Shown here: piece after piece, positions 19,026 to 64,000 of the stretch
Layout of the letters: each line of letters opens with the position of its first letter
How positions within the stretch are numbered: the stretch's first letter is position 1
Source: Membranipora membranacea
Lineage: Eukaryota > Bryozoa > Gymnolaemata > Cheilostomatida > Membraniporidae
Length of the DNA stretch: 64,000 nucleotides
NCBI GenBank assembly: GCA_914767715.1
Contig: OU612070.1
Location: forward strand, 13,843,501-13,907,500
Reading direction: 5' to 3'
The notes under the pieces: model-generated
Databases searched by the model: none
What the model was told of the DNA's origin: nothing
What the model saw: only the letters and a program-made list of their open reading frames with translations
Translations under genes and position numbers: made by a program

Positions 19026-19030
19026 GCAAA

Positions 19031-40730: not shown

Positions 40731-40738
40731 ATTTCACA

Positions 40739-40826: not shown

Positions 40827-41034
40827 GTGAGTGAATGTATTGAATGGTAGCTTATTGTTTAAGATTAGCTGGATTCATGTTAGCCTCACCAGCCTCCCAA
40901 CGATGGACCGTGTGACAAGGCTACTTCTGTCTGCCTGCTCAGCTTGGTGTGATGCAAAGCACAATCATCCCTACAATCACTCCCTTGATAACATCAACTC
41001 CATTGGAGCTATAAACAAAGTGTTCTACATGCCT

Positions 41035-41285
41035 GCCGCTATGCTATATCTGAAACTAGGGGTTTTAGGATACCCAATACAACGAAACTCAACACAATCT
41101 GCCCCCCTTGATTATATTTAAAATCCCAGGTTTTGGAGTAGACCTGTGGACTGACAGGTTTTTGGCTGAGTCATGTTATTTTTACCTTTGTAGTCAGACT
41201 TCATGTAAAATGGGAGTTGCCTTCAATTTATGTGTGGTGGGGCAACCCAAAAGTATTAGAATTTGGCTAATATGCAATATAACAG
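41035..41285 (-). repeat. dispersed repeat family B, copy 3 (internally deleted, inverted)
   Basis: Read on the minus strand it begins with the left end of copy 2 (TTAGCCAAATTCTAATA, GGTTGCCCCACCACACATAA, AACATGACTCAG, CTGTCAGTC) and ends with its right end (GTTGTATTGG, ATCCTAAAACCCCTAGTTTC, AGATATAGCA), lacking the A-rich middle of about 420 bp. Confidence 0.65.
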
Positions 41286-41423
41286 CTACTCACTCATTGA
41301 TTATTTATTTATTTTAAAATAAATGTGGGTTAAAATAGCTTTGTCTCTGTCCAAGGACTGAGAAATATCAGCAGGCAGGTCGGAGCACACCTAGGGCGTC
41401 AATTGAGCCCAGTAGTCAGTATT

Positions 41424-41502
41424 CCGCAGCGGGATTCGAACCCAGGACCTCCAACGCTTGCGCGTTAGAGGGTAGGCTCTAACCAACTGAGCTACCTTTA
41501 TG
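41424..41502 (-). repeat. tRNA-derived SINE head or degenerate tRNA
   Basis: Minus strand carries a near-perfect A box (TAGCTCAGTTGG, 41483-41494) and B box (GGTTCGAATCC, 41432-41442) at tRNA-like spacing, with an 8-bp hairpin (CTCTAACG/CGTTGGAG) where the anticodon arm should be. The acceptor stem does not pair and the T stem is imperfect, so it is not a functional tRNA but probably a Pol III-transcribed SINE head or tRNA pseudogene. Confidence 0.65.
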
Positions 41503-41899
41503 GATAAAGGGAAAATATCTGAATTGACGTGTCTGGTCTTGTCAAGACAGGCTTACCCTGAAAATGCATTTTGCTATTTATGTATGGTTGCTCGAAATTA
41601 TTCCTCATCGGACATGCATCCTCCGCTTTTTATGATTGTTTTGTAATATCTACACAAGCCATCAGGTGCCACTCTATGTTATTTGAGTAGTAATAAAGCA
41701 TAATGTTTGGTGTTGCTGTGGTCAGTGATTGTTTTTACATGTTCATGAAATGTGTTTGGTTGTTGACGTGTTGACATGCCATTGCTGTTACACCATTCGC
41801 CAGTTTCCGCTGCTGCACAAGCTATTGATGGGTCATTTGTTGCCTTTGTTCTGGAGGCACACTCGGTGCCTTGTGGCACTCAGACATTACAGATATGCT

Positions 41900-44150: not shown

Positions 44151-44730
44151 CGCTGATATCCTTGGAAATTGTCTCTATGAGTTGGTGAATTGAACTACCA
44201 ATACTGCACAAATTAATCTAGCAGACTTAGACTCTATTCCTCAACATCAATTGCTCAGTTGTTTCTCTCTTTCGGTCTCTCAATGTGACACACTCATTCA
44301 TGATATCATTGACATAAAACATAGACATTTCATCAAAAAGTGGACAATTTATAATGGAAAAACCACAATATTGTTAACTATCTGTCTTATCAATATTCAA
44401 TGGTGCAAATGTTTTTGAATAAATATTTTAGCGCACTGCTATGGGCAGGGCTGGTTAAGTTTAACTAGTATACTCTTGCACACAATTCATGATGCCTGGG
44501 GGATTGTCTGTAAAACAGTCATTGGTTGTTAGACTGACACAAAAGGCTTATATAAAGGGGATGCATTATGCACCGGTGGAATTTTACCACCTCAATTTTC
44601 ATGAATTCATTGAAACTGACTAGCAAACTGTGTTCTGGTGAATTGGTCTAATAACACATGTCAATACAATCATCACCAATAAACAAGTTGTGACGGTATT
44701 GGTATTAACAAAACTTTTGGCTGCATTTCA

Positions 44731-44881
44731 GTATCCGGAGCGGCATATGAAATCCTTTAAGAGAGATTATCAGAGACATGGGAAATATAATCTAGATATT
44801 CAAGTTCCTCATCTAGCAAGATTGGCTGATCACTACAAACAGAAATATCATCAGACTCAGAACTGGACTGATTGTCTAAAA
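44731..44881 (+). other. possible coding exon, readable on both strands
   Basis: Plus strand: acceptor GCTGCATTTCAG, about 50 codons (YPERHMKSFKRDYQRH, LARLADHYKQKYHQTQNW), then donor GTGAGTAG. Minus strand: acceptor CTACTCACTTTTAG, then SSSESDDISVCSDQPIL...ELEYLDYISHV and a TAA at about 44,757. Both have plausible splice sites, but only one is likely real. Neither family is recognised and no companion exon was found. Confidence 0.3.
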
Positions 44882-45373
44882 GTGAGTAGACTTTAGAATG
44901 AGTTTCCATGAGGACGCAGGGACATGAGGAGTAGGTGAAGATTTGTTTTTTATCATGCCCTTTTTGGGAACTTATAATGCAAACCGCAGTCCGCAGGGCA
45001 TAGTGTGTGCGTAAGCGCTCTATCATATTGACACTATTCTCTTCCATGACACACCAATTTAATAAAAACAATTTTTACTTGTCAAGATTCACATTAGTTG
45101 CCCACTTGGTAAGAATAAAAAAGTTGTTTATCACTCGATGAAAGCACTACCTGCTCACCATAAACAATACCTGTAACATTCTGTCAATCATAGGCGTATT
45201 TAACTATCTCGAACTCTCGAATGTTAGAGGCAAGGATGGTTAGAGTGTTGGGAAAAATGTTCCACCCTCGAATCAAGTAATGAGGAATTGTCTTCTTTGT
45301 CTGTTATTATTATTAGTTGTCCTCTCTTTGTCACTGGACATAAAAGTAAAATTTTGATATGAAACCAGTAGAC

Positions 45374-46765
45374 TTTTTGTTGTCTATTGACATTCCAAGG
45401 TCATCTTAATTAATACTTTGGGATGCAACAAAGTTACAGGAAAATACAGATAGAGCAAATCTTTTCTCCCTAAAAACTTCCTCATGCTACCCTAATGCTA
45501 CCCAAATCTCTGGAGTATTGCTCTGTATATATTGTTACCCAGAAAGTCCCTTGACTTTTATCCCTCCAATCCTCTCATCAATATGCATATTTAGCAGCAA
45601 AGCAAGCACACCTGTCTGTTTTTGTTTTTTTTTCATCATCATCATCATCATGATCATCATTTCATTATTGATGATGATGGTTGGTGGTTGATTGATTGCT
45701 TGTTGTTGATTCATTGATTTTATTGTTGTGTTGATTGATTGAGACTGTCAACAGAACCCCACAGAACCACCACTTGGCCATCAATCATAGTCATAGCTAT
45801 CAATCATGGTCACAACACAGCCTCAGAGTCAGACCCACTGCAGTCATCATGGGCACCTGCTGGATCAGACATAGTACACAACAATATATACATCATATTT
45901 ATTCTGGGGAATGATGTTGATTTTCCAATCTTTAACCTGGAGGTCAACAAGTCACTTACTTACCATTGGAGTTTGTCTGGTTATGTTAATATTCTCTACT
46001 CTAACAATTTGTTAGAGACTCTAACAAATTTGTTAGAGTCTCTAACAGATGCTTGTCTCCTGAAAAAAATTTTTGTTGTCTATTGACATTCCAAGGTCAT
46101 CTTAATTAATACTTTGGGATGCAACAAAGTTACAGGAAAATACAGATAGAGCAAATCTTTTCTCCCTAAAAACTTCCTCATGCTACCCTAATGCTACCCA
46201 AATCTCTGGAGTATTGCTCTGTATATATTGTTACCCAGAAAGTCCCTTGACTTTTATCCCTCCAATCCTCTCATCAATATGCATATTTAGCAGCAAAGCA
46301 AGCACACCTGTCTGTTTTTGTTTTTTTTTCATCATCATCATCATCATGATCATCATTTCATTATTGATGATGATGGTTGGTGGTTGATTGATTGCTTGTT
46401 GTTGATTCATTGATTTTATTGTTGTGTTGATTGATTGAGACTGTCAACAGAACCCCACAGAACCACCACTTGGCCATCAATCATAGTCATAGCTATCAAT
46501 CATGGTCACAACACAGCCTCAGAGTCAGACCCACTGCAGTCATCATGGGCACCTGCTGGATCAGACATAGTACACAACAATATATACATCATATTTATTC
46601 TGGGGAATGATGTTGATTTTCCAATCTTTAACCTGGAGGTCAACAAGTCACTTACTTACCATTGGAGTTTGTCTGGTTATGTTAATATTCTCTACTCTAA
46701 CAATTTGTTAGAGACTCTAACAAATTTGTTAGAGTCTCTAACAGATGCTTGTCTCCTGAAAAAAA
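45374..46765 (+). repeat. 696-bp perfect tandem duplication
   Basis: Unit 1 is 45374-46069 and unit 2 is 46070-46765, apparently identical over their full length, with TTTTT at each junction (45374, 46070, 46766). Each unit contains a (CAT)n-like run, an ATTGATT-rich stretch and a palindromic TCTAACAAATTTGTTAGA cluster. The shared open frame of about 110 codons is probably not a gene. Confidence 0.92.
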
Positions 46766-48075
46766 TTTTTCCGCTGCGCGGGGCTTTTTTTGTTAGAGAG
46801 TTGACCAGACAGATTAAATACGCCTATGCTGTCAATAATATGAGATGAAAAAGCTAGGGATGGAGGTGGTCACGGTTGCTCAATGCGAACCCAATCCTGA
46901 GATCAGAGTAAAATGTGGAAAACTTAAGGCTTGGTTGATTGAGGGTCAATGTTTTGCTTCTGATGTTTTACGGTAATTGTCACAGAATGTGAGCAATGAA
47001 CTAAACCTCCAGGAAGAACAACTCATAGTTAAGCTGGCTGCTGATTGGCTATTTCCGAAAATTTGAAAAATGATGTGCATGCATAAATAATGGTCACTTG
47101 AAATTAGAGAGTGATCAGTAAAAAATGAAATTGCAATCACTAGGAGTAATTGTTTATGATGAAACATGGTTATGAGGGATAACAGGACTCATACCTTCAA
47201 CTGCCTGTCCAACATTCCATGATTTAGAGTTAGATGACACATTCCTCAGCATATCTTGCTTGTATATGCTGATTTTACTGAGTTTTTCATCATTTTACAA
47301 TCAAAATGTGAATGTTCAATGTATTTACCTGCAAGGTATATGTTCTTTGCAATATAGCCCATAGCCACATGTTTTTAGATTGATCAATTATGGGTTCTGC
47401 ATAGAGATTCCAGGATTTATAGAGTGAAAAATTAACATTTTAATGACTTTTCTCTGCATTATTTTTGAGGTTTAAGCATTGTATATCTGCAAAGGATGGC
47501 ACCTCAACTGTCAATGAGCATCTTCTCTATAGTTCCATGTCTCAGTTTAGTGAAATAAACCATCAGTTATGAGAATATTTGGTGTCAACACCATGGCCAT
47601 CAAGCCTCATCACTAAGCATATTCACAGAATTGCGGTTATTTTCTAGTGAGTCAGTGTATTCAGTGTAACCCACCCCTAATTGCTACAAAAGAACTTGGG
47701 CTATCATGGAGTTATGTTTCCAATTTAGTGTGTTTTTGAGAGGACAACTCTGAACCAACTGCACACACCTCAATTGGTCATGTGACAGCAGTTGTTCTTC
47801 CTGGAGGTTTAGTTCATTGATGTGAGTGATTTCAGTAGGCTTGATAAATTATTTAATGAACACGTTTGAGAGCTAATGACGTATAGAACGTACCTGCTTG
47901 TGAGGAGGAGCCTAAAGCCATAATGGTGTTAAGTAAAAGATAATAGTTAAAGTCTGGTTGTTAAATGGTATATTAAAGAATAGGAAGGTCAAATACCAAT
48001 AAAACATAATTATCAAGGCACTTACAATATTATTTTGAAGTACATATCTGAGGAGGGATTACAATTCTGTTGTAG
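46766..48075. other. region upstream of the NTase-TPR gene
   Basis: No confident coding exon. It should contain the promoter and at least one upstream exon of the giant gene, since an acceptor-like TTCTGTTGTAG ends at 48075. The phrase CTGGAGGTTTAGTTCATTG occurs at about 47,799 and, inverted, at about 46,996-47,015, forming an inverted pair about 0.8 kb apart. Confidence 0.4.
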
Positions 48076-51000
48076 GCACATTCCCTATATAACTCTGTGG
48101 CTACAAGAAAGCCAAAGTTTGAGGGATGGAAGGAAAGGGCATTTGAACTGCAGCAGGCGTTCTGGGGAGGTCAGTCAAAGATGACTTACACAGACCAGAA
48201 AATATTGACAGACAAGCTGAAGCAGCAGCTAGAAGCTATAAGGACGGAATGCAGAGAAAAGCAGAAAATCCCCGATGAGATGGTTGGTTTACTGGACAGG
48301 AAGTGTGAAGATGAAAACTGGGATAAAGTTTATTATGAGAGCATGAAGGCTATTTCACTTTGGTGCTCAGATGAGATGGCAAAACTCGCAGAGGTTGTCA
48401 TAAGAGAGAGTCTAAGCTGTCTAACTGCGAATCCTCCTTGTCGTTTTACAGCAGTTGCAATCGGTTCTGTGGCAAAAGGAGAGGCAACTCCCTATTCAGA
48501 CCTTGAGTTCCTGTTTCTTATTGAGTCAAAAACACCAGAAACTGTATGTTATTTTGAAACATTGGCTTTAACTTCATATTTCCTGATAGGGAACTTAGGG
48601 GAGACAAAGCTTTCCTATATGGCAGTTGAAGAACTGTACGGGTGGTTTGATGACAGGGCAAAGAACGGATTCAAGATAGATGGGCTGGCAAAAGGAGCTG
48701 GCAACATCCCCACAGGTAGTGGTCTCTCTGAAAATCACAATCACTTCATAGTCACCCCAAAAGAGCTAGCAGAAAGGCACCAACACATACTCAATAATCC
48801 AGTTGAGGAAGAGGCCCTCAGAGGTGACCTGACAGCTATGCTGACATATATGAAGCCTTTCTATTCGCACTGTGGTGATGAGCTGTTTCAGGATCTCACT
48901 GATAACCTAAACACGCAATTAGTTGACACATCCGTCAATCCAAAGAGAAAGCAAACCAACCTCAAAATGCTCATCACTGATGCACGCAAATTCAACTTTC
49001 AACCCAGCTGTGATTTGATACATAAAGGGTTCAACGCAGATGTCAAACGAGAGCTATACAGATTTCCATCCATTATTTTACTTGATACCTGTATAGTTTT
49101 CAGCACCGTATCATCATCATCGTGGAGCTCTCTAGAGTTGCTCTCTAGAACTTCTAAAATAAGTGAGGATATTGCTACATCTTTTGGCGCAATGCTTTCA
49201 ATAGCGTCATATATTCGTCTTGGATCTTATTTGTATCATGACTCACATGACGACAGAATGTCTGTGGCAAAAAGCTTATTTTGGAAGGAGAATGCTGTAA
49301 AAAATTCTGAACCTGATTTGGAAAACAGACGATGGTATATTTCTGTTGAGCTATTCTGTAGACTTTGCGAATTGATGGCTCCCATAAAAGATTATTTAGC
49401 AATGGAAGAAATGCACACAAAAGACAACTTTAAATTTCAACACTTATATCCAGATAAACAGTGGGCAAAAGTCACTACCCTGTTTTACAGCGGCAACTAT
49501 GATGATGCTATCGAAGCCCTGAAAGGAATGCACACTGAAAATGTTCACACAGTGAAGGGTGTGCAATCTCTGATCTCAACTGTGGACAGCAGCAGGCTTG
49601 ATGTCATATCAGAGATATTATACATGGCAGATGCTAAAGAAGCAGCTGTAACTCTGATGCAGTATCTGACTGAGCACAATATTGAAGATAAGAAAAGTCG
49701 ATTGTCTCTAGTGCTAGTGAATCTGGGTCGACCTGATGAAGCATTCCAAATACTGACAGCCTTAGAAACCAAGAGTAATGAGAATCACTACGCGCTTGGA
49801 CAAATTTATCAAAGCCAAAATGATTACAAGAAGGCAGAAAATCATTTCCTACAGGCACTTAAAATTTCATATAGTGAAAGTGGCTGCGAGCGCATGTTCG
49901 ATTACTATGGTAATCCAATAGCAGCAAAATATCCAACCAAACCTCTAGTTGATATGGAGAAAATGTCTGTGGAAGAAAGGATTGATATTATTGTTGATGT
50001 ATCACCATATCAACTAGGCTACCTTCTCGCATTAGCTGATATTTACCACAAACAAGAACAACATCGGTTCGCCCAAGCTTACTATACCAAATGTTTACAG
50101 GGACATAAGAAGCTTTACGGGCTATATGCTGTAGACAAGCTCAAACCCTGTATATTCTCTAGACTTGCAGATAGTTTTAAAGCCTTGGGACAGTACAGTG
50201 ATGCCGAGGACCACTACAAACAAGCATTAGCAATGTACAGAGAGCTGTCACAGAGTGGTGTCAGTAAGGATATAGCTCGTACACTGAGCTATCTGGGAGC
50301 TAACTACACAGATATGGGACAGTACAGTGATGCCGAGGACCACTACAAACAAGCATTAGCTATGTATAGAGAGCCATCAATCAGTGGTGTTAGTGAGGAT
50401 ATAGCTCGTACACTGAGCAATCTGGGAGTTATCTACAAAGCTATGGGACAGTACAGTGATGCCGAGGACCACTACAAACAAGCATTAGCAATGTACAGAG
50501 AGCCGTCAATCAGTGGTGTTAGTGAGGCTATAGCTCGTACACTGAGCAATCTGGGAGCTAACTACAAAGCTATGGGACAGTACAGTGATGCCGAGGACCA
50601 CTACAAACAAGCATTAGCAATGTACAGAGAGCCGTCAATCAGTGGTGTTAGTGAGGCTATAGCTCGTACACTGAGCAATCTGGGAGCTAACTACAAAGCT
50701 ATGGGACAGTACAGTGATGCCGAGGACCACTACAAACAAGCATTAGCTATGTATAGAGAGCCATCAATCAGTGGTGTTAGTGAGGATATAGCTCGTACAC
50801 TGAGCAATCTGGGAGTTAACTACAAAGCTATGGGACAGTACAGTGATGCCGAGGACTACTACAAACAAGCATTAGCTATGTATAGAGAGCCATCAATCAG
50901 TGGTGTTAGTGAGGATATAGCTCGTACACTGAGCAATCTGGGAGCTAACTACACAGATATGGGACAGTACAGTGATGCCGAGGACCACTACAAACAAGCA

Positions 51001-54000
51001 TTAGCTATGTATAGAGAGCCATCAATCAGTGGTGTTAGTGAGGATATAGCTCGTACACTGAGCAATCTGGGAGTTAACTACAAAGCTATGGGACAGTACA
51101 GTGATGCCGAGGACCACTACAAACAAGCATTAGCTATGTATAGAGAGCTATCGAACAGTGGTGTTAGTGAGGATATAGCTGGTACACTGAGCAATCTGGG
51201 AGCTAACTACGCAGATATGGGACAGTATGGTGATGCCGAGGACCACTACAAACAAGCATTAGCTATGTATAGAGAGCCATCAATCAGTGGTGTTAGTGAG
51301 GATATAGCTCGTACACTGAGCAATCTGGGAGTTAACTACAAAGCTATGGGACAGTACAGTGATGCCGAGGACTACTACAAACAAGCATTAGCTATGTATA
51401 GAGAGCCATCAATCAGTGGTGTTAGTGAGGATATAGCTCGTACACTGAGCAATCTGGGAGCTAACTACACAGATATGGGACAGTACAGTGATGCCGAGGA
51501 CCACTACAAACAAGCATTAGCTATGTATAGAGAGCCATCAATCAGTGGTGTTAGTGAGGATATAGCTCGTACACTGAGCAATCTGGGAGTTAACTACAAA
51601 GCTATGGGACAGTACAGTGATGCCGAGGACCACTACAAACAAGCATTAGCTATGTATAGAGAGCTATCGAACAGTGGTGTTAGTGAGGATATAGCTGGTA
51701 CACTGAGCAATCTGGGAGCTAACTACACAGATATGGGACAGTACAGTGATGCCGAGGACCACTACAAACAAGCATTAGCTATGTATAGAGAGCCATCAAT
51801 CAGTGGTGTTAGTGAGGATATAGCTCGTACACTGAGCAATCTGGGAGTTAACTACAAAGCTATGGGACAGTACAGTGATGCCGAGGACCACTACAAACAA
51901 GCATTAGCAATGTACAGAGAGCCGTCAATCAGTGGTGTTAGTGAGGCTATAGCTCGTACACTGAGCAATCTGGGAGCTAACTACAAAGCTATGGGACAGT
52001 ACAGTGATGCCGAGGACCACTACAAACAAGCATTAGCAATGTACAGAGAGCCGTCAATCAGTGGTGTTGGTGAGGCTATAGCTCGTACACTGAGCAATCT
52101 GGGAGCTAACTACAAAGCTATGGGACAGTACAGTGATGCCGAGGACCACTACAAACAAGCATTAGCTATGTATAGAGAGCCATCAATCAGTGGTGTTAGT
52201 GAGGATATAGCTCGTACACTGAGCAATCTGGGAGTTAACTACAAAGCTATGGGACAGTACAGTGATGCCGAGGACCACTACAAACAAGCATTAGCTATGT
52301 ATAGAGAGCTATCGAACAGTGGTGTTAGTGAGGATATAGCTGGTACACTGAGCAATCTGGGAGCTAACTACACAGATATGGGACAGTACGGTGATGCCGA
52401 GGACCACTACAAACAAGCATTAGCTATGTATAGAGAGCCATCAATCAGTGGTGTTAGTGAGGATATAGCTCGTACACTGAGCAATCTGGGAGTTAACTAC
52501 AAAGCTATGGGACAGTACAGTGATGCCGAGGACTACTACAAACAAGCATTAGCTATGTATAGAGAGCCATCAATCAGTGGTGTTAGTGAGGATATAGCTC
52601 GTACACTGAGCAATCTGGGAGCTAACTACACAGATATGGGACAGTACAGTGATGCCGAGGACCACTACAAACAAGCATTAGCTATGTATAGAGAGCCATC
52701 AATCAGTGGTGTTAGTGAGGATATAGCTCGTACACTGAGCAATCTGGGAGTTAACTACAAAGCTATGGGACAGTACAGTGATGCCGAGGACCACTACAAA
52801 CAAGCATTAGCTATGTATAGAGAGCTATCGAACAGTGGTGTTAGTGAGGATATAGCTGGTACACTGAGCAATCTGGGAGCTAACTACACATATATGGGAC
52901 AGTACAGTGATGCCGAGGACCACTACAAACAAGCATTAGCTATGTATAGAGAGCCATCAATCAGTGGTGTTAGTGAGGATATAGCTCGTACACTGAGCAA
53001 TCTGGGAGTTAACTACAAAGCTATGGGACAGTACAGTGATGCCGAGGACCACTACAAACAAGCATTAGCAATGTACAGAGAGCCGTCAATCAGTGGTGTT
53101 AGTGAGGCTATAGCTCGTACACTGAGCAATCTGGGAGTTAACTACAAAGCTATGGGACAGTACAGTGATGCCGAGGACCACTACAAACAAGCATTAGCAA
53201 TGTACAGAGAGCCGTCAATCAGTGGTGTTGGTGAGGCTATAGCTCGTACACTGAGCAATCTGGGAGCTAACTACAAAGCTATGGGACAGTACAGTGATGC
53301 CGAGGACCACTACAAACAAGCATTAGCTATGTATAGAGAGCCATCAATCAGTGGTGTTAGTGAGGATATAGCTCGTACACTGAGCAATCTGGGAGTTAAC
53401 TACAAAGCTATGGGACAGTACAGGGATGCCGAGGACCACTACAAACAAGCATTAGCTATGTATAGAGAGCCATCAATCAGTGGTGTTAGTGAGGATATAG
53501 CTGGTACACTGAGCAATCTGGGAGCTAACTACACAGATATGGGACAGTACGGTGATGCCGAGGACCACTACAAACAAGCATTAGCTATGTATAGAGAGCC
53601 ATCAATCAGTGGTGTTAGTGAGGATATAGCTCGTACACTGAGCAATCTGGGAGTTAACTACAAAGCTATGGGACAGTACAGTGATGCCGAGGACTACTAC
53701 AAACAAGCATTAGCTATGTATAGAGAGCCATCAATCAGTGGTGTTAGTGAGGATATAGCTCGTACACTGAGCAATCTGGGAGCTAACTACACAGATATGG
53801 GACAGTACAGTGATGCCGAGGACCACTACAAACAAGCATTAGCTATGTATAGAGAGCCATCAATCAGTGGTGTTAGTGAGGATATAGCTCGTACACTGAG
53901 CAATCTGGGAGTTAACTACAAAGCTATGGGACAGTACAGTGATGCCGAGGACCACTACAAACAAGCATTAGCTATGTATAGAGAGCTATCGAACAGTGGT

Positions 54001-57000
54001 GTTAGTGAGGATATAGCTGGTACACTGAGCAATCTGGGAGCTAACTACACATATATGGGACAGTACAGTGATGCCGAGGACCACTACAAACAAGCATTAG
54101 CTATGTATAGAGAGCCATCAATCAGTGGTGTTAGTGAGGATATAGCTCGTACACTGAGCAATCTGGGAGTTAACTACAAAGCTATGGGACAGTACAGTGA
54201 TGCCGAGGACCACTACAAACAAGCATTAGCAATGTACAGAGAGCCGTCAATCAGTGGTGTTAGTGAGGCTATAGCTCGTACACTGAGCAATCTGGGAGTT
54301 AACTACAAAGCTATGGGACAGTACAGTGATGCCGAGGACCACTACAAACAAGCATTAGCAATGTACAGAGAGCCGTCAATCAGTGGTGTTGGTGAGGCTA
54401 TAGCTCGTACACTGAGCAATCTGGGAGCTAACTACAAAGCTATGGGACAGTACAGTGATGCCGAGGACCACTACAAACAAGCATTAGCTATGTATAGAGA
54501 GCCATCAATCAGTGGTGTTAGTGAGGATATAGCTCGTACACTGAGCAATCTGGGAGTTAACTACAAAGCTATGGGACAGTACAGGGATGCCGAGGACCAC
54601 TACAAACAAGCATTAGCTATGTATAGAGAGCCATCAATCAGTGGTGTTAGTGAGGATATAGCTGGTACACTGAGCAATCTGGGAGCTAACTACAAAGCTA
54701 TGGGACAGTACAGTGATGCCGAGGACCACTACAAACAAGCATTAGCAATGTACAGAGAGCCGTCAATCAGTGGTGTTAGTGAGGATATAGCTCGTACACT
54801 GAGCAATCTGGGAGTTAACTACAAAGCTATGGGACAGTACAGTGATGCCGAGGACTACTATAAACAAGCATTAGCTATGTATAGAGAGCTATCGAACAGT
54901 GGTGTTAGTGAGGATATAGCTGGTACACTGAGCAATCTGGGAGCTAACTACACAGATATGGGACAGTACAGTGATGCCGAGGACCACTACAAACAAGCAT
55001 TAGCTATGTATAGAGAGCCATCAATCAGTGGTGTTAGTGAGGATATAGCTCGTACACTGAGCAATCTGGGAGTTAACTACAAAACTATGGGACAGTACAG
55101 TGATGCCGAGGACCACTACAAACAAGCATTAGCTATGTATAGAGAGCTATCGAACAGTGGTGTTAGTGAGGATATAGCTGGTACACTGAGCAATCTGGGA
55201 GCTAACTACACAGATATGGGACAGTACAGTGATGCCGAGGACCACTACAAACAAGCATTAGCTATGTATAGAGAGCCATCAATCAGTGGTGTTAGTGAGG
55301 ATATAGCTCGTACACTGAGCAATTTGGGAGTTAACTACAAAGCTATGGGACAGTACAGTGATGCCGAGGACCACTACAAACAAGCATTAGCAATGTACAG
55401 AGAGCCGTCAATCAGTGGTGTTAGTGAGGATATAGCTCGTACACTGAGCAATCTGGGAGTTAACTACAAAGCTATGGGACAGTACAGTGATGCCGAGGAC
55501 TACTACAAACAAGCATTAGCTATGTATAAAGAGCCATCAATCAGTGGTGTTAGTGAGGATATAGCTCGTACACTGAGCAATCTGGGAGCTAACTACACAG
55601 ATATGGGACAGTACAGTGATGCCGAGGACCACTACAAACAAGCATTAGCTATGTATAGAGAGCCATCAATCAGTGGTGTTAGTGAGGATATAGCTCGTAC
55701 ACTGAGCAATCTGGGAGTTAACTACAAAGCTATGGGACAGTACAGTGATGCCGAGGACCACTACAAACAAGCATTAGCTATGTATAGAGAGCTATCGAAC
55801 AGTGGTGTTAGTGAGGATATAGCTGGTACACTGAGCAATCTGGGAGCTAACTACACAGATATGGGACAGTACAGTGATGCCGAGGACCACTACAAACAAG
55901 CATTAGCTATGTATAGAGAGCCATCAATCAGTGGTGTTAGTGAGGATATAGCTCGTACACTGAGCAATCTGGGAGTTAACTACAAAGCTATGGGACAGTA
56001 CAGTGATGCCGAGGACCACTACAAACAAGCATTAGCAATGTACAGAGAGCCGTCAATCAGTGGTGTTAGTGAGGCTATAGCTCGTACACTGAGCAATCTG
56101 GGAGCTAACTACAAAGCTATGGGACAGTACAGTGATGCCGAGGACCACTACAAACAAGCATTAGCAATGTACAGAGAGCCGTCAATCAGTGGTGTTGGTG
56201 AGGCTATAGCTCGTACACTGAGCAATCTGGGAGCTAACTACAAAGCTATGGGACAGTACAGTGATGCCGAGGACCACTACAAACAAGCATTAGCTATGTA
56301 TAGAGAGCCATCAATCAGTGGTGTTAGTGAGGATATAGCTCGTACACTGAGCAATCTGGGAGTTAACTACAAAGCTATGGGACAGTACAGTGATGCCGAG
56401 GACCACTACAAACAAGCATTAGCTATGTATAGAGAGCCATCAATCAGTGGTGTTAGTGAGGATATAGCTGGTACACTGAGCAATCTGGGAGCTAACTACA
56501 AAGCTATGGGACAGTACAGTGATGCCGAGGACCACTACAAACAAGCATTAGCAATGTACAGAGAGCCGTCAATCAGTGGTGTTAGTGAGGATATAGCTCG
56601 TACACTGAGCAATCTGGGAGTTAACTACAAAGCTATGGGACAGTACAGTGATGCCGAGGACTACTACAAACAAGCATTAGCTATGTATAGAGAGCCATCA
56701 ATCAGTGGTGTTAGTGAGGATATAGCTCGTACACTGAGCAATCTGGGAGCTAACTACACAGATATGGGACAGTACAGTGATGCCGAGGACCACTACAAAC
56801 AAGCATTAGCTATGTATAGAGAGCCATCAATCAGTGGTGTTAGTGAGGATATAGCTCGTACACTGAGCAATCTGGGAGTTAACTACAAAGCTATGGGACA
56901 GTACAGTGATGCCGAGGACCACTACAAACAAGCATTAGCTATGTATAGAGAGCTATCGAACAGTGGTGTTAGTGAGGATATAGCTGGTACACTGAGCAAT

Positions 57001-60000
57001 CTGGGAGCTAACTACACATATATGGGACAGTACAGTGATGCCGAGGACCACTACAAACAAGCATTAGCTATGTATAGAGAGCCATCAATCAGTGGTGTTA
57101 GTGAGGATATAGCTCGTACACTGAGCAATCTGGGAGTTAACTACAAAGCTATGGGACAGTACAGTGATGCCGAGGACCACTACAAACAAGCATTAGCAAT
57201 GTACAGAGAGCCGTCAATCAGTGGTGTTAGTGAGGCTATAGCTCGTACACTGAGCAATCTGGGAGTTAACTACAAAGCTATGGGACAGTACAGTGATGCC
57301 GAGGACCACTACAAACAAGCATTAGCAATGTACAGAGAGCCGTCAATCAGTGGTGTTGGTGAGGCTATAGCTCGTACACTGAGCAATCTGGGAGCTAACT
57401 ACAAAGCTATGGGACAGTACAGTGATGCCGAGGACCACTACAAACAAGCATTAGCTATGTATAGAGAGCCATCAATCAGTGGTGTTAGTGAGGATATAGC
57501 TCGTACACTGAGCAATCTGGGAGTTAACTACAAAGCTATGGGACAGTACAGGGATGCCGAGGACCACTATAAACAAGCATTAGCTATGTATAGAGAGCCA
57601 TCAATCAGTGGTGTTAGTGAGGATATAGCTGGTACACTGAGCAATCTGGGAGCTAACTACAAAGCTATGGGACAGTACAGTGATGCCGAGGACCACTACA
57701 AACAAGCATTAGCAATGTACAGAGAGCCGTCAATCAGTGGTGTTAGTGAGGATATAGCTCGTACACTGAGCAATCTGGGAGTTAACTACAAAGCTATGGG
57801 ACAGAACAGTGATGCCGAGGACTACTATAAACAAGCATTAGCTATGTATAGAGAGCTATCGAACAGTGGTGTTAGTGAGGATATAGCTGGTACACTGAGC
57901 AATCTGGGAGCTAACTACACAGATATGGGACAGTACAGTGATGCCGAGGACCACTACAAACAAGCATTAGCTATGTATAGAGAGCCATCAATCAGTGGTG
58001 TTAGTGAGGATATAGCTCGTACACTGAGCAATCTGGGAGTTAACTACAAAACTATGGGACAGTACAGTGATGCCGAGGACCACTACAAACAAGCATTAGC
58101 TATGTATAGAGAGCTATCGAACAGTGGTGTTAGTGAGGATATAGCTGGTACACTGAGCAATCTGGGAGCTAACTACACAGATATGGGACAGTACAGTGAT
58201 GCCGAGGACCACTACAAACAAGCATTAGCTATGTATAGAGAGCCATCAATCAGTGGTGTTAGTGAGGATATAGCTCGTACACTGAGCAATTTGGGAGTTA
58301 ACTACAAAGCTATGGGACAGTACAGTGATGCCGAGGACCACTACAAACAAGCATTAGCAATGTACAGAGAGCCGTCAATCAGTGGTGTTAGTGAGGATAT
58401 AGCTCGTACACTGAGCAATCTGGGAGTTAACTACAAAGCTATGGGACAGTACAGTGATGCCGAGGACTACTACAAACAAGCATTAGCTATGTATAGAGAG
58501 CCATCAATCAGTGGTGTTAGTGAGGATATAGCTCGTACACTGAGCAATCTGGGAGCTAACTACACAGATATGGGACAGTACAGTGATGCCGAGGACCACT
58601 ACAAACAAGCATTAGCTATGTATAGAGAGCCATCAATCAGTGGTGTTAGTGAGGATATAGCTCGTACACTGAGCAATCTGGGAGTTAACTACAAAGCTAT
58701 GGGACAGTACAGTGATGCCGAGGACCACTACAAACAAGCATTAGCTATGTATAGAGAGCTATCGAACAGTGGTGTTAGTGAGGATATAGCTGGTACACTG
58801 AGCAATCTGGGAGCTAACTACACAGATATGGGACAGTACAGTGATGCCGAGGACCACTACAAACAAGCATTAGCTATGTATAGAGAGCCATCAATCAGTG
58901 GTGTTAGTGAGGATATAGCTCGTACACTGAGCAATCTGGGAGTTAACTACAAAGCTATGGGACAGTACAGTGATGCCGAGGACCACTACAAACAAGCATT
59001 AGCAATGTACAGAGAGCCGTCAATCAGTGGTGTTAGTGAGGCTATAGCTCGTACACTGAGCAATCTGGGAGCTAACTACAAAGCTATGGGACAGTACAGT
59101 GATGCCGAGGACCACTACAAACAAGCATTAGCAATGTACAGAGAGCCGTCAATCAGTGGTGTTGGTGAGGCTATAGCTCGTACACTGAGCAATCTGGGAG
59201 CTAACTACAAAGCTATGGGACAGTACAGTGATGCCGAGGACCACTACAAACAAGCATTAGCTATGTATAGAGAGCCATCAATCAGTGGTGTTAGTGAGGA
59301 TATAGCTCGTACACTGAGCAATCTGGGAGTTAACTACAAAGCTATGGGACAGTACAGTGATGCCGAGGACCACTACAAACAAGCATTAGCTATGTATAGA
59401 GAGCCATCAATCAGTGGTGTTAGTGAGGATATAGCTGGTACACTGAGCAATCTGGGAGCTAACTACAAAGCTATGGGACAGTACAGTGATGCCGAGGACC
59501 ACTACAAACAAGCATTAGCAATGTACAGAGAGCCGTCAATCAGTGGTGTTAGTGAGGATATAGCTCGTACACTGAGCAATCTGGGAGTTAACTACAAAGC
59601 TATGGGACAGTACAGTGATGCCGAGGACTACTACAAACAAGCATTAGCTATGTATAGAGAGCCATCAATCAGTGGTGTTAGTGAGGATATAGCTCGTACA
59701 CTGAGCAATCTGGGAGCTAACTACACAGATATGGGACAGTACAGTGATGCCGAGGACCACTACAAACAAGCATTAGCTATGTATAGAGAGCCATCAATCA
59801 GTGGTGTTAGTGAGGATATAGCTCGTACACTGAGCAATCTGGGAGTTAACTACAAAGCTATGGGACAGTACAGTGATGCCGAGGACCACTACAAACAAGC
59901 ATTAGCTATGTATAGAGAGCTATCGAACAGTGGTGTTAGTGAGGATATAGCTGGTACACTGAGCAATCTGGGAGCTAACTACAAAGCTATGGGACAGTAC

Positions 60001-61791
60001 AGTGATGCCGAGGACCACTACAAACAAGCATTAGCTATGTATAGAGAGCCATCAATCAGTGGTGTTAGTGAGGATATAGCTCGTACACTGAGCAATCTGG
60101 GAGTTAACTACAAAGCTATGGGACAGTACAGTGATGCCGAGGACTACTATAAACAAGCATTAGCTATGTATAGAGAGCTATCGAACAGTGGTGTTAGTGA
60201 GGATATAGCTGGTACACTGAGCAATCTGGGAGCTAACTACACAGATATGGGACAGTACAGTGATGCCGAGGACCACTACAAACAAGCATTAGCTATGTAT
60301 AGAGAGCCATCAATCAGTGGTGTTAGTGAGGATATAGCTCGTACACTGAGCAATCTGGGAGTTAACTACACAGATATGGGACAGTACAGTGATGCCGAGG
60401 ACCACTACAAACAAGCATTAGCTATGTATAGAGAGCTATCGAACAGTGGTGTTAGTGAGGATATAGCTGGTACACTGAGCAATCTGGGAGCTAACTACAC
60501 AGATATGGGACAGTACAGTGATGCCGAGGACCACTACAAACAAGCATTAGCTATGTATAGAGAGCCATCAATCAGTGGTGTTAGTGGGGATATAGCTCGT
60601 ACACTGAGCAATCTGGGAGTTAACTACAAAGCTATGGGACAGTACAGTGATGCCGAGGACCACTACAAACAAGCATTAGCTATGTATAGAGAGCTATCGA
60701 ACAGTGGTGTTAGTGAGGATATAGCTGGTACACTGAGCAATCTGGGAGCTAACTACACAGATATGGGACAGTACAGTGATGCCGAGGACCACTACAAACA
60801 AGCATTAGCTATGTATAGAGAGCCATCAATCAGTGGTGTTAGTGAGGATATAGCTCGTACACTGAGCAATCTGGGAGTTAACTACAAAGCTATGGGACAG
60901 TACAGTGATGCCGAGGACCACTACAAACAAGCATTAGCAATGTACAGAGAGCCGTCAATCAGTGGTGTTAGTGAGGCTATAGCACGTACACTGAGCAATC
61001 TGGGAGCTAACTACAAAGCTATGGGACAGTACAGTGATGCCGAGGACCACTACAAACAAGCATTAGCTATGTATAGAGAGCCATCAATCAGTGGTGTTAG
61101 TGAGGATATAGCTCGTACACTGAGCAATCTGGGAGTTAACTACAAAGCTATGGGACAGTACAGTGATGCCGAGGACCACTACAAACAAGCATTAGCTATG
61201 TATAGAGAGCCATCAATCAGTGGTGTTAGTGAGGATATAGCTGGTACACTGAGCAATCTGGGAGCTAACTACAAAGCTATGGGACAGTACAGTGATGCCG
61301 AGGACCACTACAAACAAGCATTAGCAATGTACAGAGAGCCGTCAATCAGTGGTGTTAGTGAGGATATAGCTCGTACACTGAGCAATCTGGGAGCTAACTA
61401 TAATGCTATGGGCTGGTACAGTGATGCTGAGAACTACCTAAATCAAGCTTTAGCAATGTATAAAGAACTATCAGACAATGGTTTTAGTGAGGGTATAGCG
61501 TATACGCTGGAGAATCTAGGAATCAACTACAAGACTATGGGACAGTACAGTGATGCCGAGGACTACTATAAACAAGCATTAGCTATGTATAGAGAGCTAT
61601 CAAACAGTGGTGTTAGTGAGGATATAGCAGACTCATTAAGATGTCTGGGGGACATCAGTATGGTTAGGGGTAATAACAAACAAGCAAGGATATACTACAA
61701 ACATGCGTTGTCGTCTTATCTCCAAGTTGATCCAACACATCCCAAAGTTGATCAATCATTTCATAAAACCGAATGCTGTACAATCCTTTAG
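48076..61791 (+). CDS. giant nucleotidyltransferase-TPR protein (about 4,560 aa) with CaaX end
   Basis: One uninterrupted frame of about 13.7 kb. It is open from 48076, just after an acceptor-like TTCTGTTGTAG, so an upstream exon is likely; otherwise the first in-frame ATG is 48181. Counting residue 1 at the GTG 48097: residues about 90-330 form a GlnD/DUF294-type nucleotidyltransferase with G123-S124 and metal-ligand Asp135 and Glu137 (AIGSVAKGEATPYSDLEF). Residues about 330-690 are helical with degenerate TPRs (YSGNYDDAIEALKG, NDYKKAENHFLQALKI). Residues 698-4524 comprise 89 TPR units of 43 residues (consensus GQYSDAEDHYKQALAMYRE, then GVSEDIARTLSNLG). A final degenerate TPR follows. The protein ends ECCTIL, a CaaX box predicting geranylgeranylation, with an adjacent Cys for palmitoylation. 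Probably a membrane-tethered nucleotide-transfer scaffold; substrate unknown. Confidence 0.9.
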   Translation, partial: AHSLYNSVATRKPKFEGWKERAFELQQAFWGGQSKMTYTDQKILTDKLKQQLEAIRTECREKQKIPDEMVGLLDRKCEDENWDKVYYESMKAISLWCSDEMAKLAEVVIRESLSCLTANPPCRFTAVAIGSVAKGEATPYSDLEFLFLIESKTPETVCYFETLALTSYFLIGNLGETKLSYMAVEELYGWFDDRAKNGFKIDGLAKGAGNIPTGSGLSENHNHFIVTPKELAERHQHILNNPVEEEALRGDLTAMLTYMKPFYSHCGDELFQDLTDNLNTQLVDTSVNPKRKQTNLKMLITDARKFNFQPSCDLIHKGFNADVKRELYRFPSIILLDTCIVFSTVSSSSWSSLELLSRTSKISEDIATSFGAMLSIASYIRLGSYLYHDSHDDRMSVAKSLFWKENAVKNSEPDLENRRWYISVELFCRLCELMAPIKDYLAMEEMHTKDNFKFQHLYPDKQWAKVTTLFYSGNYDDAIEALKGMHTENVHTVKGVQSLISTVDSSRLDVISEILYMADAKEAAVTLMQYLTEHNIEDKKSRLSLVLVNLGRPDEAFQILTALETKSNENHYALGQIYQSQNDYKKAENHFLQALKISYSESGCERMFDYYGNPIAAKYPTKPLVDMEKMSVEERIDIIVDVSPYQLGYLLALADIYHKQEQHRFAQAYYTKCLQGHKKLYGLYAVDKLKPCIFSRLADSFKALGQYSDAEDHYKQALAMYRELSQSGVSKDIARTLSYLGANYTDMGQYSDAEDHYKQALAMYREPSISGVSEDIARTLSNLGVIYKAMGQYSDAEDHYKQALAMYREPSISGVSEAIARTLSNLGANYKAMGQYSDAEDHYKQALAMYREPSISGVSEAIARTLSNLGANYKAMGQYSDAEDHYKQALAMYREPSISGVSEDIARTLSNLGVNYKAMGQYSDAEDYYKQALAMYREPSISGVSEDIARTLSNLGANYTDMGQYSDAEDHYKQALAMYREPSISGVSEDIARTLSNLGVNYKAMGQYSDAEDHYKQALAMYRELSNSGVSEDIAGTLSNLGANYADMGQYGDAEDHYKQALAMYREPSISGVSEDIARTLSNLGVNYKAMGQYSDAEDYYKQALAMYREPSISGVSEDIARTLSNLGANYTDMGQYSDAEDHYKQALAMYREPSISGVSEDIARTLSNLGVNYKAMGQYSDAEDHYKQALAMYRELSNSGVSEDIAGTLSNLGANYTDMGQYSDAEDHYKQALAMYREPSISGVSEDIARTLSNLGVNYKAMGQYSDAEDHYKQALAMYREPSISGVSEAIARTLSNLGANYKAMGQYSDAEDHYKQALAMYREPSISGVGEAIARTLSNLGANYKAMGQYSDAEDHYKQALAMYREPSISGVSEDIARTLSNLGVNYKAMGQYSDAEDHYKQALAMYRELSNSGVSEDIAGTLSNLGANYTDMGQYGDAEDHYKQALAMYREPSISGVSEDIARTLSNLGVNYKAMGQYSDAEDYYKQALAMYREPSISGVSEDIARTLSNLGANYTDMGQYSDAEDHYKQALAMYREPSISGVSEDIARTLSNLGVNYKAMGQYSDAEDHYKQALAMYRELSNSGVSEDIAGTLSNLGANYTYMGQYSDAEDHYKQALAMYREPSISGVSEDIARTLSNLGVNYKAMGQYSDAEDHYKQALAMYREPSISGVSEAIARTLSNLGVNYKAMGQYSDAEDHYKQALAMYREPSISGVGEAIARTLSNLGANYKAMGQYSDAEDHYKQALAMYREPSISGVSEDIARTLSNLGVNYKAMGQYRDAEDHYKQALAMYREPSISGVSEDIAGTLSNLGANYTDMGQYGDAEDHYKQALAMYREPSISGVSEDIARTLSNLGVNYKAMGQYSDAEDYYKQALAMYREPSISGVSEDIARTLSNLGANYTDMGQYSDAEDHYKQALAMYREPSISGVSEDIARTLSNLGVNYKAMGQYSDAEDHYKQALAMYRELSNSGVSEDIAGTLSNLGANYTYMGQYSDAEDHYKQALAMYREPSISGVSEDIARTLSNLGVNYKAMGQYSDAEDHYKQALAMYREPSISGVSEAIARTLSNLGVNYKAMGQYSDAEDHYKQALAMYREPSISGVGEAIARTLSNLGANYKAMGQYSDAEDHYKQALAMYREPSISGVSEDIARTLSNLGVNYKAMGQYRDAEDHYKQALAMYREPSISGVSEDIAGTLSNLGANYKAMGQYSDAEDHYKQALAMYREPSISGVSEDIARTLSNLGVNYKAMGQYSDAEDYYKQALAMYRELSNSGVSEDIAGTLSNLGANYTDMGQYSDAEDHYKQALAMYREPSISGVSEDIARTLSNLGVNYKTMGQYSDAEDHYKQALAMYRELSNSGVSEDIAGTLSNLGANYTDMGQYSDAEDHYKQALAMYREPSISGVSEDIARTLSNLGVNYKAMGQYSDAEDHYKQALAMYREPSISGVSEDIARTLSNLGVNYKAMGQYSDAEDYYKQALAMYKEPSISGVSEDIARTLSNLGANYTDMGQYSDAEDHYKQALAMYREPSISGVSEDIARTLSNLGVNYKAMGQYSDAEDHYKQALAMYRELSNSGVSEDIAGTLSNLGANYTDMGQYSDAEDHYKQALAMYREPSISGVSEDIARTLSNLGVNYKAMGQYSDAEDHYKQALAMYREPSISGVSEAIARTLSNLGANYKAMGQYSDAEDHYKQALAMYREPSISGVGEAIARTLSNLGANYKAMGQYSDAEDHYKQALAMYREPSISGVSEDIARTLSNLGVNYKAMGQYSDAEDHYKQALAMYREPSISGVSEDIAGTLSNLGANYKAMGQYSDAEDHYKQALAMYREPSISGVSEDIARTLSNLGVNYKAMGQYSDAEDYYKQALAMYREPSISGVSEDIARTLSNLGANYTDMGQYSDAEDHYKQALAMYREPSISGVSEDIARTLSNLGVNYKAMGQYSDAEDHYKQALAMYRELSNSGVSEDIAGTLSNLGANYTYMGQYSDAEDHYKQALAMYREPSISGVSEDIARTLSNLGVNYKAMGQYSDAEDHYKQALAMYREPSISGVSEAIARTLSNLGVNYKAMGQYSDAEDHYKQALAMYREPSISGVGEAIARTLSNLGANYKAMGQYSDAEDHYKQALAMYREPSISGVSEDIARTLSNLGVNYKAMGQYRDAEDHYKQALAMYREPSISGVSEDIAGTLSNLGANYKAMGQYSDAEDHYKQALAMYREPSISGVSEDIARTLSNLGVNYKAMGQNSDAEDYYKQALAMYRELSNSGVSEDIAGTLSNLGANYTDMGQYSDAEDHYKQALAMYREPSISGVSEDIARTLSNLGVNYKTMGQYSDAEDHYKQALAMYRELSNSGVSEDIAGTLSNLGANYTDMGQYSDAEDHYKQALAMYREPSISGVSEDIARTLSNLGVNYKAMGQYSDAEDHYKQALAMYREPSISGVSEDIARTLSNLGVNYKAMGQYSDAEDYYKQALAMYREPSISGVSEDIARTLSNLGANYTDMGQYSDAEDHYKQALAMYREPSISGVSEDIARTLSNLGVNYKAMGQYSDAEDHYKQALAMYRELSNSGVSEDIAGTLSNLGANYTDMGQYSDAEDHYKQALAMYREPSISGVSEDIARTLSNLGVNYKAMGQYSDAEDHYKQALAMYREPSISGVSEAIARTLSNLGANYKAMGQYSDAEDHYKQALAMYREPSISGVGEAIARTLSNLGANYKAMGQYSDAEDHYKQALAMYREPSISGVSEDIARTLSNLGVNYKAMGQYSDAEDHYKQALAMYREPSISGVSEDIAGTLSNLGANYKAMGQYSDAEDHYKQALAMYREPSISGVSEDIARTLSNLGVNYKAMGQYSDAEDYYKQALAMYREPSISGVSEDIARTLSNLGANYTDMGQYSDAEDHYKQALAMYREPSISGVSEDIARTLSNLGVNYKAMGQYSDAEDHYKQALAMYRELSNSGVSEDIAGTLSNLGANYKAMGQYSDAEDHYKQALAMYREPSISGVSEDIARTLSNLGVNYKAMGQYSDAEDYYKQALAMYRELSNSGVSEDIAGTLSNLGANYTDMGQYSDAEDHYKQALAMYREPSISGVSEDIARTLSNLGVNYTDMGQYSDAEDHYKQALAMYRELSNSGVSEDIAGTLSNLGANYTDMGQYSDAEDHYKQALAMYREPSISGVSGDIARTLSNLGVNYKAMGQYSDAEDHYKQALAMYRELSNSGVSEDIAGTLSNLGANYTDMGQYSDAEDHYKQALAMYREPSISGVSEDIARTLSNLGVNYKAMGQYSDAEDHYKQALAMYREPSISGVSEAIARTLSNLGANYKAMGQYSDAEDHYKQALAMYREPSISGVSEDIARTLSNLGVNYKAMGQYSDAEDHYKQALAMYREPSISGVSEDIAGTLSNLGANYKAMGQYSDAEDHYKQALAMYREPSISGVSEDIARTLSNLGANYNAMGWYSDAENYLNQALAMYKELSDNGFSEGIAYTLENLGINYKTMGQYSDAEDYYKQALAMYRELSNSGVSEDIADSLRCLGDISMVRGNNKQARIYYKHALSSYLQVDPTHPKVDQSFHKTECCTIL
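50188..61668 (+). repeat. 89 x 129-bp in-frame TPR-coding tandem array with higher-order structure
   Basis: The GGACAGTACAGTGATGCC start of each unit recurs at exact multiples of 129 bp from 50188 to 61540 (88 intervals = 11,352 bp). Units are almost identical in DNA and differ at a few diagnostic codons (H/Y, PSI/LSN, SED/SEA/GEA, R/G, A/V, KAM/TDM/TYM). Diagnostic variants recur at 1,161 bp (9 units) and 2,967 bp (23 units). No indel or stop occurs. Confidence 0.95.
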
Positions 61792-62081
61792 CATTTTGTG
61801 GGTAGACTGTAGAGCAAGTCACATTTGTGTATTTTAAATTTTATTATGTCAAATCTGATGTTGTAATGATTCATGTTTTATATGTAATCTTTTGATGTAT
61901 TTATAAACACTTACAGTCTTGGAGTCTTACATGATATCTAGTTCCATCATTGAATATATTACATGTTTTAGCGCCCTTCTCATTTTATCTCGATCAGAAT
62001 AACTTTGTCTTTTCATAAAATTTTTATTATGCTATATGATCATTATCATCATTATATTATTTACATACATAATGAAGTATA

Positions 62082-62087
62082 AATAAA
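62082..62087 (+). promoter_or_regulatory. candidate polyadenylation signal of the NTase-TPR gene
   Basis: AATAAA about 290 bp downstream of the stop codon in an AT-rich 3' region. It is the first canonical hexamer I see on this strand after the gene. Confidence 0.4.
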
Positions 62088-62099
62088 TACAAACTATAT

Positions 62100-64000
62100 T
62101 CAGCAATGTTCTTCTATCTGCAAAGCAAGTTCAAAGGGTTTGAGATCACACAAAGTTATCAGGTAAATTCCTGTTTTCGAGGCACGCTAAAAATATAAAA
62201 AGGAAACTGTGATAAAGCCTCATGATTTAAAAAAATGTCTACAGAGGATGATTGACCATTCAGACAGATGAGTAAGCATGGAACTCTCTAAGCAATCGTC
62301 AATCTTAGCTAACATTTTACAAGTGTAGAATTCCTACATCTGGCTGTCTCACTGAACACACAAAAGATTCTTAGTTTTTGATGGAAATCCCACTCAGTAG
62401 GCACATGTAACTACACGTTGGTATCGGCTTGTGTTAACTTCAATTCAACAAAAACAAGAGGGCAGCCTTACAGGGTCATACTATTGACATAGTATGAAAG
62501 TTTCGATCGGCAGCTTATTACCCTTCTTTCATGTTGTGTCTCTCTCCAGTTGCTTTAGAATGGGAATTAAAGCCGCTGCATAAAGCATGGCTTTGAATAG
62601 CTAGAGCCACCTCTCTTATCCTGAAGTCACAAGAACTACAGATTAAGATTTTCCACCTGTTAACAGCTATATGATACTATCTATACTTTTTATGCCCATG
62701 TGACAAGGCCATATCAGAGTCTCTAAATATGATGACCAAACTGTGCTAGTGTTATGCGAAAGGAATGGAATGGGAGAAGTTCTACAGAATATGTTCTTAT
62801 GGATACATATGGTTGGTATTAGCATCTCATAGTTATCCCCTCTCTCAACATGATGAGACAACCCAAAACTCTCCCGTTTACGCTATGCTATACTCGGATA
62901 AACGATACAAAGTTATCACTACCCAAACTATATGATAGTTAAACTTTTATAAACTTGAGTCATTGTGTTTGCTCTATTCAAAGTTGAACAACGATAATTC
63001 ATTCTAAGACACCGACTAATCTCTATTTGATTTGACCGGAACGCTGAAGTAAAAGTTACACAACATTCTCTAGTCTCAGGAATTACCATCTTTTGAAAAT
63101 TGCACTGGAATAAAAAATAGACTTCATTTTTTTATTTTGCTTGTGTTACATTTTTTCACAAGAAGGAGAAAAAAATGAACAATGTCTTAATAATAAATGG
63201 AAAAGTTTTTTGAGGGAAAACGCCCCTATCGTTCTTACTGTCAGACATTTGACAAAAGTCATATAAAATAAACCTAATGATACAGCAGGGAGTTTGTCCC
63301 CTGGTTACAACAGTCTGGGATCATAATTACAAACACATTCAAAATTTAATTTTCTTACTTTTAATTATCAAAATAAAATAACAGCACTCAAATCCTTAAA
63401 AACACATGTGCGACCTTGGGTTTTAAGGCAAAGTTGTTATTAACGGCAATAAATTTGTAATGAGAAGCCGATCTGTTGTTGTTAGTCAGTAGTTTGAAAT
63501 GAGGTCATCCCTGTGATGTTAACGTGAGCCTGAAGTTGGGTTATATTTCTGTTGAGCCAGAGCCTAGATAGCGTACTCAGCTGCGTTTGACTAAGATTAG
63601 CCCTCAGATTTGTCATAAAACGCCTCATATGCGTGTTGCTGTTCATAAATTCCGTCATCCTCTGCTCGCTAGAAATCTAGAACAAGGTAATATATGGGAT
63701 CAGGGATTGAGTCATAACCAAAGAGGCCCCCATGAGCCATAGATGCTGGACTCAGGATGCCTGTCCTACTGCAAACTCAATAATGCACACCGTTTAGAGG
63801 CAGCATGTTCGTTCAGTAACTGGTTTTTTGTTAATTGATTGCCTTAGTGGATTACGAAGAATATTTTTGCTAATTTAGAGGAGGTAACTCCTAATATTGA
63901 GTCAACTTCCTCAAACCATCAATAATGTTGTTAAATCGGATAATTAAGTAACCATTCAGCGGTAGCTTATTTACAGAGAGTATATTTACACTCATCGATA
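62100..64000. other. non-coding region to the window end
   Basis: AT-rich with no supported gene or RNA. Holds one copy of dispersed repeat A (62585-62668). Confidence 0.45.
62585..62668 (+). repeat. dispersed repeat family A, copy 3
   Basis: Matches 7519-7602 from GCATGGCT to AACAGCT, including CTCTTATCCTGAAGTCAC, in the same orientation. Confidence 0.7.

Follow-up and report, generated by a model that had tools for sequence, protein, structure and literature searches.

A 64,000-nt stretch of the Membranipora membranacea genome (contig OU612070.1, positions 13,843,501 to 13,907,500; here called the window) contains a gene in which a nucleotidyltransferase (NTase), a HEPN-like helical domain and a solenoid of 89 tetratricopeptide repeat (TPR) units lie in one open frame. 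It belongs to a multigene family, in which the sequence searches turned up no longer member. The acidic motif of the NTase is conserved among relatives, its predicted fold is that of protein adenylyltransferases, and in the repeats omega (the ratio of replacement to synonymous change) is higher at concave, ligand-facing positions than elsewhere. Our working interpretation, in which the solenoid would provide recognition and nucleotide transfer to protein would provide the output, we regard as evenly poised between right and wrong.

One frame joins the nucleotidyltransferase and the repeats

Positions 48076-61791 of the forward strand are open from stop to stop, with 4571 codons and 1 terminal stop, as an earlier note on this DNA had stated for an uninterrupted 13.7-kb frame. 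Its length, homology and conservation rule out a frame that is open by chance. The same note had placed NTase and TPRs in a single gene, and the comparison with relatives, which keep the same order within one frame, supports this. What the note presented as a whole reading frame is, however, very probably a long exon and not the entire gene. Residue 1 (AHSLYNSV) lies immediately 3' of a TAG at 48073-48075, where ttctgttgtag is followed by gcacat. Of 42 paralog frames from the same genome, 40 either have NAG directly before this start motif or begin with the motif itself, and 14 of 93 database relatives have Q (as from CAG) at this boundary, a pattern that points to a shared splice acceptor. 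The first Met in the frame is residue 36. Three forward frames of 40,001-48,078 gave no Pfam family at E ≤ 0.1, with the upstream exon(s) not located there, and one forward frame of 61,792-64,000 gave none at the same threshold.

Predicted fold and conserved motif of the nucleotidyltransferase

The GS...SDLE motif that had been called GlnD/DUF294-like corresponds to G130-S131...S141-D142-L143-E144 and is near-invariant in relatives. Per aligned column, G130 is found in 104/104 rows, S131 in 102/104, D142 in 104/104 and E144 in 103/105. D202, in the sequence IDG, is a candidate third metal ligand within a stretch of low model confidence (pLDDT). Because a Foldseek search with the whole model gave TPR and helical-repeat proteins (best 50 rows), the NTase was folded separately for the structure search. 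The closest folds to this AlphaFold 2 (AF2) model were GlnE and DrrA, protein adenylyltransferases, and the NTase together with the helical domain agrees with the same fold type. Recovery of an NTase fold had been set in advance as a check on the proposed fusion, and the fold was recovered with these two proteins nearest.

Profile searches gave the following results. DUF294 (PF03445) scored 16.6-18.3 bits on the window sequence, below the Pfam gathering score of 21, and matched 42 of 47 aligned family members at E ≤ 0.01; by sequence, the window NTase is related to DUF294 but outside its formal membership. In NCBIfam the only rows, for GlnD, MntA and aminoglycoside NTases, were weak (best E 4e-4). 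A PDB sequence search with the N-terminal part recovered TPRs, and a profile search with alignment A2 gave TPR and pentatricopeptide repeat (PPR)-type proteins in the best 60 of 293 rows. On the NTase part, the PDB sequence search gave only weak rows, among them phosphodiesterase 10A and ribosomal protein eL42, that were taken as chance. On the modelled structure, the best placement of the NTase is next to GlnE and DrrA, neither of which is known to carry a TPR solenoid.

These comparisons bear on what the enzyme might do. A small-molecule acceptor, as in aminoglycoside nucleotidyltransferases, appears highly improbable, since those enzymes rank far below GlnE and DrrA in structure matches. 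The domain could also be catalytically dead and act in nucleotide binding or docking. It has D-X-E in place of D-X-D, and one report describes MntA as inactivated by D-to-E changes (PMC7641770). Arguing against such loss, the G, S, D, E and later D are near-invariant in relatives, and omega for the NTase is 0.31 (100 non-independent paralog pairs), as for a working active site. We consider a dead enzyme decidedly unlikely and favor a catalytic NTase that would act on protein.

A young array of 89 near-identical units

Tandem Repeats Finder reported a 129-nt unit in 88.8 copies at 50179-61628, with 95% matches and 0% indels. Read as protein, the array comprises 89 units of 43 residues (50179-61659), of which the first and the last two are more divergent; the number and near-identity of units given in the earlier note thus stand. 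TPR_12 scored 297.9 bits on 48076-51000 (cutoff 30.1, E 1.5e-90). The 89 units include 23 distinct sequences as protein and 27 as DNA, and the 86 interior units have an average pairwise DNA identity of 0.961, with a minimum of 0.899. Exact copies are most frequent among units that lie 9 (27/77), 14 (16/72), 23 (27/63) or 32 (17/54) units apart, indicating duplication of multi-unit blocks. With so few distinct DNA units and exact copies at set lags, the array is, on sequence grounds, young. The frame stops 43 residues past the array, and the best 25 of 44 families matched in 61000-61791 include no CHAT domain after the TPRs.

One caveat here is that the count of 89 comes from a single assembly. 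Assembly is difficult for an array of 11.5 kb whose units are 96% identical, and the unit number might be an artefact of that process. A frame that stays open across all units, and paralogs with 71 and 41 units in the same assembly, make this quite improbable.

The window gene belongs to a large family

We searched the genome (339,339,785 bases, 18 contigs) for the NTase part and obtained at least 64 matching rows, a lower bound in that 63 of 325 candidates were scored. With the window's own row set aside and two rows that share a locus counted once, 62 other loci remain, with dense clusters on contigs C2 and C5. One internal stop is present in 4 of the 64 rows. Paralogs L026, L032 and L034 each have one in-frame stop within the matched region and are possible pseudogenes. 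Repeat number in paralogs ranges from none detected up to 71, and the window's 89 is the longest found. The next longest open frames have 3967 and 2692 residues: L009 (G000:C5:16.80 Mb; 3937 residues as cut) carries 71 near-identical 44-residue units and L011 (G000:C5:17.10 Mb) carries 41.

Outside this genome, the best database match (P0001) is 56% identical and has some 2-3 units of this type. When an amphioxus protein served as query, 805 proteins matched at E ≤ 0.001, and the 120 listed are all Branchiostoma by name. The relatives suggest an animal host, and genome size, the probable intron and the mobile-element genes a eukaryotic one. Among the 242 proteins examined, near-identical arrays are present in amphioxus too; the window's array has 3728 repeat positions at 60% local identity, and none of the 29 further rows listed exceeds 1379. 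P0120, a protein of bacterial type with 3107 residues, contains two NTases, each followed by TPR-like repeats. Searches of genomic contig and viral contig collections gave no relative. In a FastTree phylogeny of 83 NTase domains, rooted at the midpoint without an outgroup, the window type is split from all others (support 1.0 / 0.225 across the root). In the same tree the chlamydia-type proteins P0097, P0103 and P0120 join the amphioxus clade with a support of 0.73, a possible sign of transfer between bacteria and animals.

Variation is concentrated on the concave ligand face

Positions 2, 5, 9, 12, 13, 33 and 34 are described as the most variable in TPRs generally and as lying on the concave ligand face (PMC1261162). 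Our test set consisted of the five helix-A positions (2, 5, 9, 12 and 13), chosen after viewing the window's variable codons and then fixed; positions 33 and 34 were dropped from later tests because longer units make their placement uncertain. Across the window's 86 interior units, minor residues exceed 10% at 4/5 test positions versus 4/38 others (Fisher 0.0026; 0.0075 at a 5% threshold and 0.032 for any variation), and at 5/7 versus 3/36 when positions 33 and 34 are included (Fisher 0.0011). A near-identical run is present in 91 of the 242 proteins, window included, and 28 besides the window have at least 5 units, which are 44 residues long in 27. In all 28 of these database arrays the test set is more variable than the remaining positions. 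The paralog DNA set covers 42 of the 62 other loci, 34 with at least 5 units and 8 without. Here, too, the test set is more variable in 34/34 arrays, and its positions are the top five when arrays are averaged. This figure was obtained by template phasing; an earlier anchor, which was mis-phased, gave 25/34.

Variant types point in the same direction. Replacement/synonymous counts in paralogs are 405/44 at test positions and 971/458 elsewhere (Fisher 1.8e-23, uncorrected for shared ancestry). For nearest unit pairs in paralogs, omega is 1.57 on the concave face (bootstrap over arrays 1.34-1.91) versus 0.44 elsewhere (0.38-0.53), with concave values of 1.74 for C2, 1.10 for C5 and 2.85 for other loci. 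The ratio pN/pS is highest at positions 2 (2.21), 9 (1.69), 12 (1.43), 5 (1.38) and 31 (1.23), while position 13 gives 0.81, positions 33 and 34 jointly 0.39, and the presumed exposed helix-B positions 0.43. Position 31 lies outside the preset set and is the most variable in the 28 database arrays. The value of 1.50 observed for the test set was attained by 2 of 100,000 random 5-position sets. Nearest pairs in the window's own array give 2.11 on the concave face versus 0.40 elsewhere.

Since omega above 1 at the concave face exceeds what relaxed constraint alone should yield, diversifying selection is the better reading of these sequences. Several points limit this reading. In the window alone, variant types at the concave positions do not significantly outnumber the neutral expectation (p 0.18 with 86 units and 0.17 with 89); omega was computed by NG86 and is approximate, from unit pairs that are related to one another; and the contrast covers arrays joined to an NTase, without an NTase-free TPR array as control.

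Another possibility is that the solenoid is a mere scaffold or spacer with no recognition role, its array growing neutrally by unequal exchange. Nested block duplications in the window array fit this, as does the spread of repeat number among paralogs, some with no detected repeats and one with 71, together with the count of about 2-3 in P0001. It accords poorly with the constraint that an omega of 0.44 implies outside the concave face, and with a replacement excess on the ligand face that is not seen at the presumed exposed helix-B positions. We judge a neutral scaffold unlikely; the binding surface of the family appears to be diversifying, as in recognition or immune receptors. This pattern of selection lends indirect support to a possible role in sensing or innate immunity, which the earlier note had offered as an inference. 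Family expansion and a diversifying ligand face would fit allorecognition, symbiont recognition or development and defence alike, and a family serving those roles instead of defence is somewhat unlikely in our estimation.

Predicted membrane attachment

A CaaX-type C-terminus is a rule for prenylation. The window protein ends in CTIL, a predicted site of this type that probably tethers it to the membrane. Relative P0001 also ends in CTIL, and P0006 ends in CVIS. Among 124 proteins, a set that may include incomplete ones, Cys is at -4 in 7, two of which (P0001 and P0006) were judged CaaX-type, and a hydrophobic segment lies within the last 60 residues in 6. In the same-genome paralogs, Cys is at -4 in 0 of 42 frames, and a hydrophobic C-terminal segment follows a basic stretch in 3 of 42. 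Given these two counts, membrane attachment is a prediction for the window's copy and no family rule. Paralogs L019, L024 and L027 end in KRKRDRRR and a hydrophobic segment, resembling a tail anchor.

Other features of the window

Feature coordinates are collected in Table 1. Fragments at 15524-29623 resemble a Polinton/Maverick-like or related mobile element. A 122-bp unit is present three times at 29723-30084 (93% matches). Upstream of the gene are two 300-nt copies, 100% identical and 696 nt apart (45374-45673 and 46070-46369), accompanied by one 21-nt tandem repeat found at both 45998-46047 and 46694-46743.

Table 1. Features of the window, with positions counted from its first nucleotide
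Feature	Position	Strand	Basis or content
Single open frame	48076..61791	+	Order: NTase, HEPN-like helical domain, lead-in TPRs, TPR array, cap
AG of inferred splice acceptor	48074..48075	+	ttctgttgtag and paralog NAG pattern
NTase core, ~residues 97-286	48364..48933	+	AF2 models; GlnE/DrrA matches; sub-threshold Pfam NTP_transf_2 and DUF294
Catalytic motif G130-X11-D142-X-E144	48463..48507	+	Conservation in aligned relatives
D202 (IDG), candidate third metal ligand	48679..48681	+	D in 105/106 aligned rows
HEPN-like helical domain, residues 287-450	48934..49425	+	
Divergent helical and TPR lead-in, residues 457-701	49444..50178	+	AF2 model; Pfam TPR_2, TPR_8 at 570-598
89 TPR units, 129 nt / 43 aa each	50179..61659	+	Tandem Repeats Finder; protein reading; TPR_12
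C-terminal cap, residues 4529-4571, and stop	61660..61791	+	Aligned with database relative P0001
C-terminal CTIL, predicted CaaX-type prenylation site	61777..61788	+	Same ending in P0001
AATAAA, first downstream polyadenylation signal	62082..62087	+	Consensus match only
Integrase core with chromodomain	16622-17797	+	
Adenovirus-type protease, sub-threshold	20347-20892	+	
Zinc-finger frame, 1432 aa	21154-25452	-	
A32-like ATPase, sub-threshold	29012-29623	-	

A proposed mechanism

We propose that the family consists of receptor-enzymes, with an N-terminal GlnE/DrrA-fold NTase and HEPN-like domain and a C-terminal TPR solenoid. The solenoid would gain and lose length through block duplication as its concave ligand face becomes more diverse, and it would capture a protein ligand at many similar sites. 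Capture would present a client to the NTase, or release the NTase, which would then modify the client by transferring a nucleotide, most likely AMP, onto protein. In this copy the CTIL C-terminus would hold the protein at the membrane. An NTase that instead makes a diffusible nucleotide signal, as cGAS, OAS, CD-NTases and HalB do, with the solenoid sensing the trigger, seems improbable to us.

Returning to transfer onto protein, the family may form a third class of animal protein nucleotidylyltransferases beside Fic and SelO, made up of germline-diversified receptors, some membrane-tethered, in which target recognition is answered by protein nucleotidylylation; we offer this tentatively and give it rather less than even weight. 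Its role might lie in defence or in self/non-self recognition. Should the family prove active and its host be an animal, a third such class would be added, with tens of copies in one genome. Arrays of up to 89 units would provide a natural series in which the evolution of the ligand face can be read unit by unit, so that the way in which near-identical repeats let a receptor recognize many ligands could be tested directly.

Comparison with known systems

The earlier note held that a near-homogeneous solenoid of this size joined to an NTase was not described. This may hold for the size. The fusion itself has precedents in bacteria and among database entries, as seen in NEX2, in at least 120 amphioxus entries and in the 64 rows from the same genome. 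The amphioxus proteins, named 'Protein-PII uridylyltransferase N-terminal domain-containing' or TTC28, combine an NTase with near-identical TPR arrays, mostly of 44 aa, and their hypervariable positions overlap those of the window. They differ from the window protein in sequence (23-30% identity, apart from a short stretch of one protein at 41%), form a separate clade among the sampled NTases and have the NTase further inside the protein. TPR-like repeats of the fungus Podospora may be linked to fungal immune-type receptors. Like the window's, these fungal repeats (PDB 4y6c, 4y6w) are nearly identical, kinesin-light-chain-like units.

NEX2 of Neochlamydia is an expanded family of 50 proteins with DUF294 in most members and C-terminal TPRs; a majority have an N-terminal F-box, ten have an OTU domain in front, and a tested member has a type III secretion signal (Domman et al. 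2014, PMC4209131). A DUF294-like NTase with C-terminal TPRs is thus common to NEX2 and the window gene, and both belong to expanded families. NEX2 is bacterial and mostly carries an F-box. We found no F-box in residues 1-555 of the window protein nor in three forward frames of 40,001-48,078, a region in which the upstream exon was not located.

With GlnE, the glutamine synthetase adenylyltransferase, and DrrA/SidM (1v4a, 3k7d, 6yx5) the window protein shares the predicted fold and the G-X11-D/E-X-D/E motif; GlnE contains the domain twice, once N-terminally and once C-terminally, and DrrA has exchange-factor and lipid-binding parts (PMC8097203). TPR tracts of great length joined to a further domain have also been published: coral TPR-CHAT is described as an expanded animal family with a TPR range of up to 3,832 aa and one further domain (PMC12314368). 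That domain is CHAT, where the window gene has an NTase. Within the open-licence literature, what appears to be new is the size of this member, the large family in one genome, and a conserved enzyme paired with a ligand face that diversifies.
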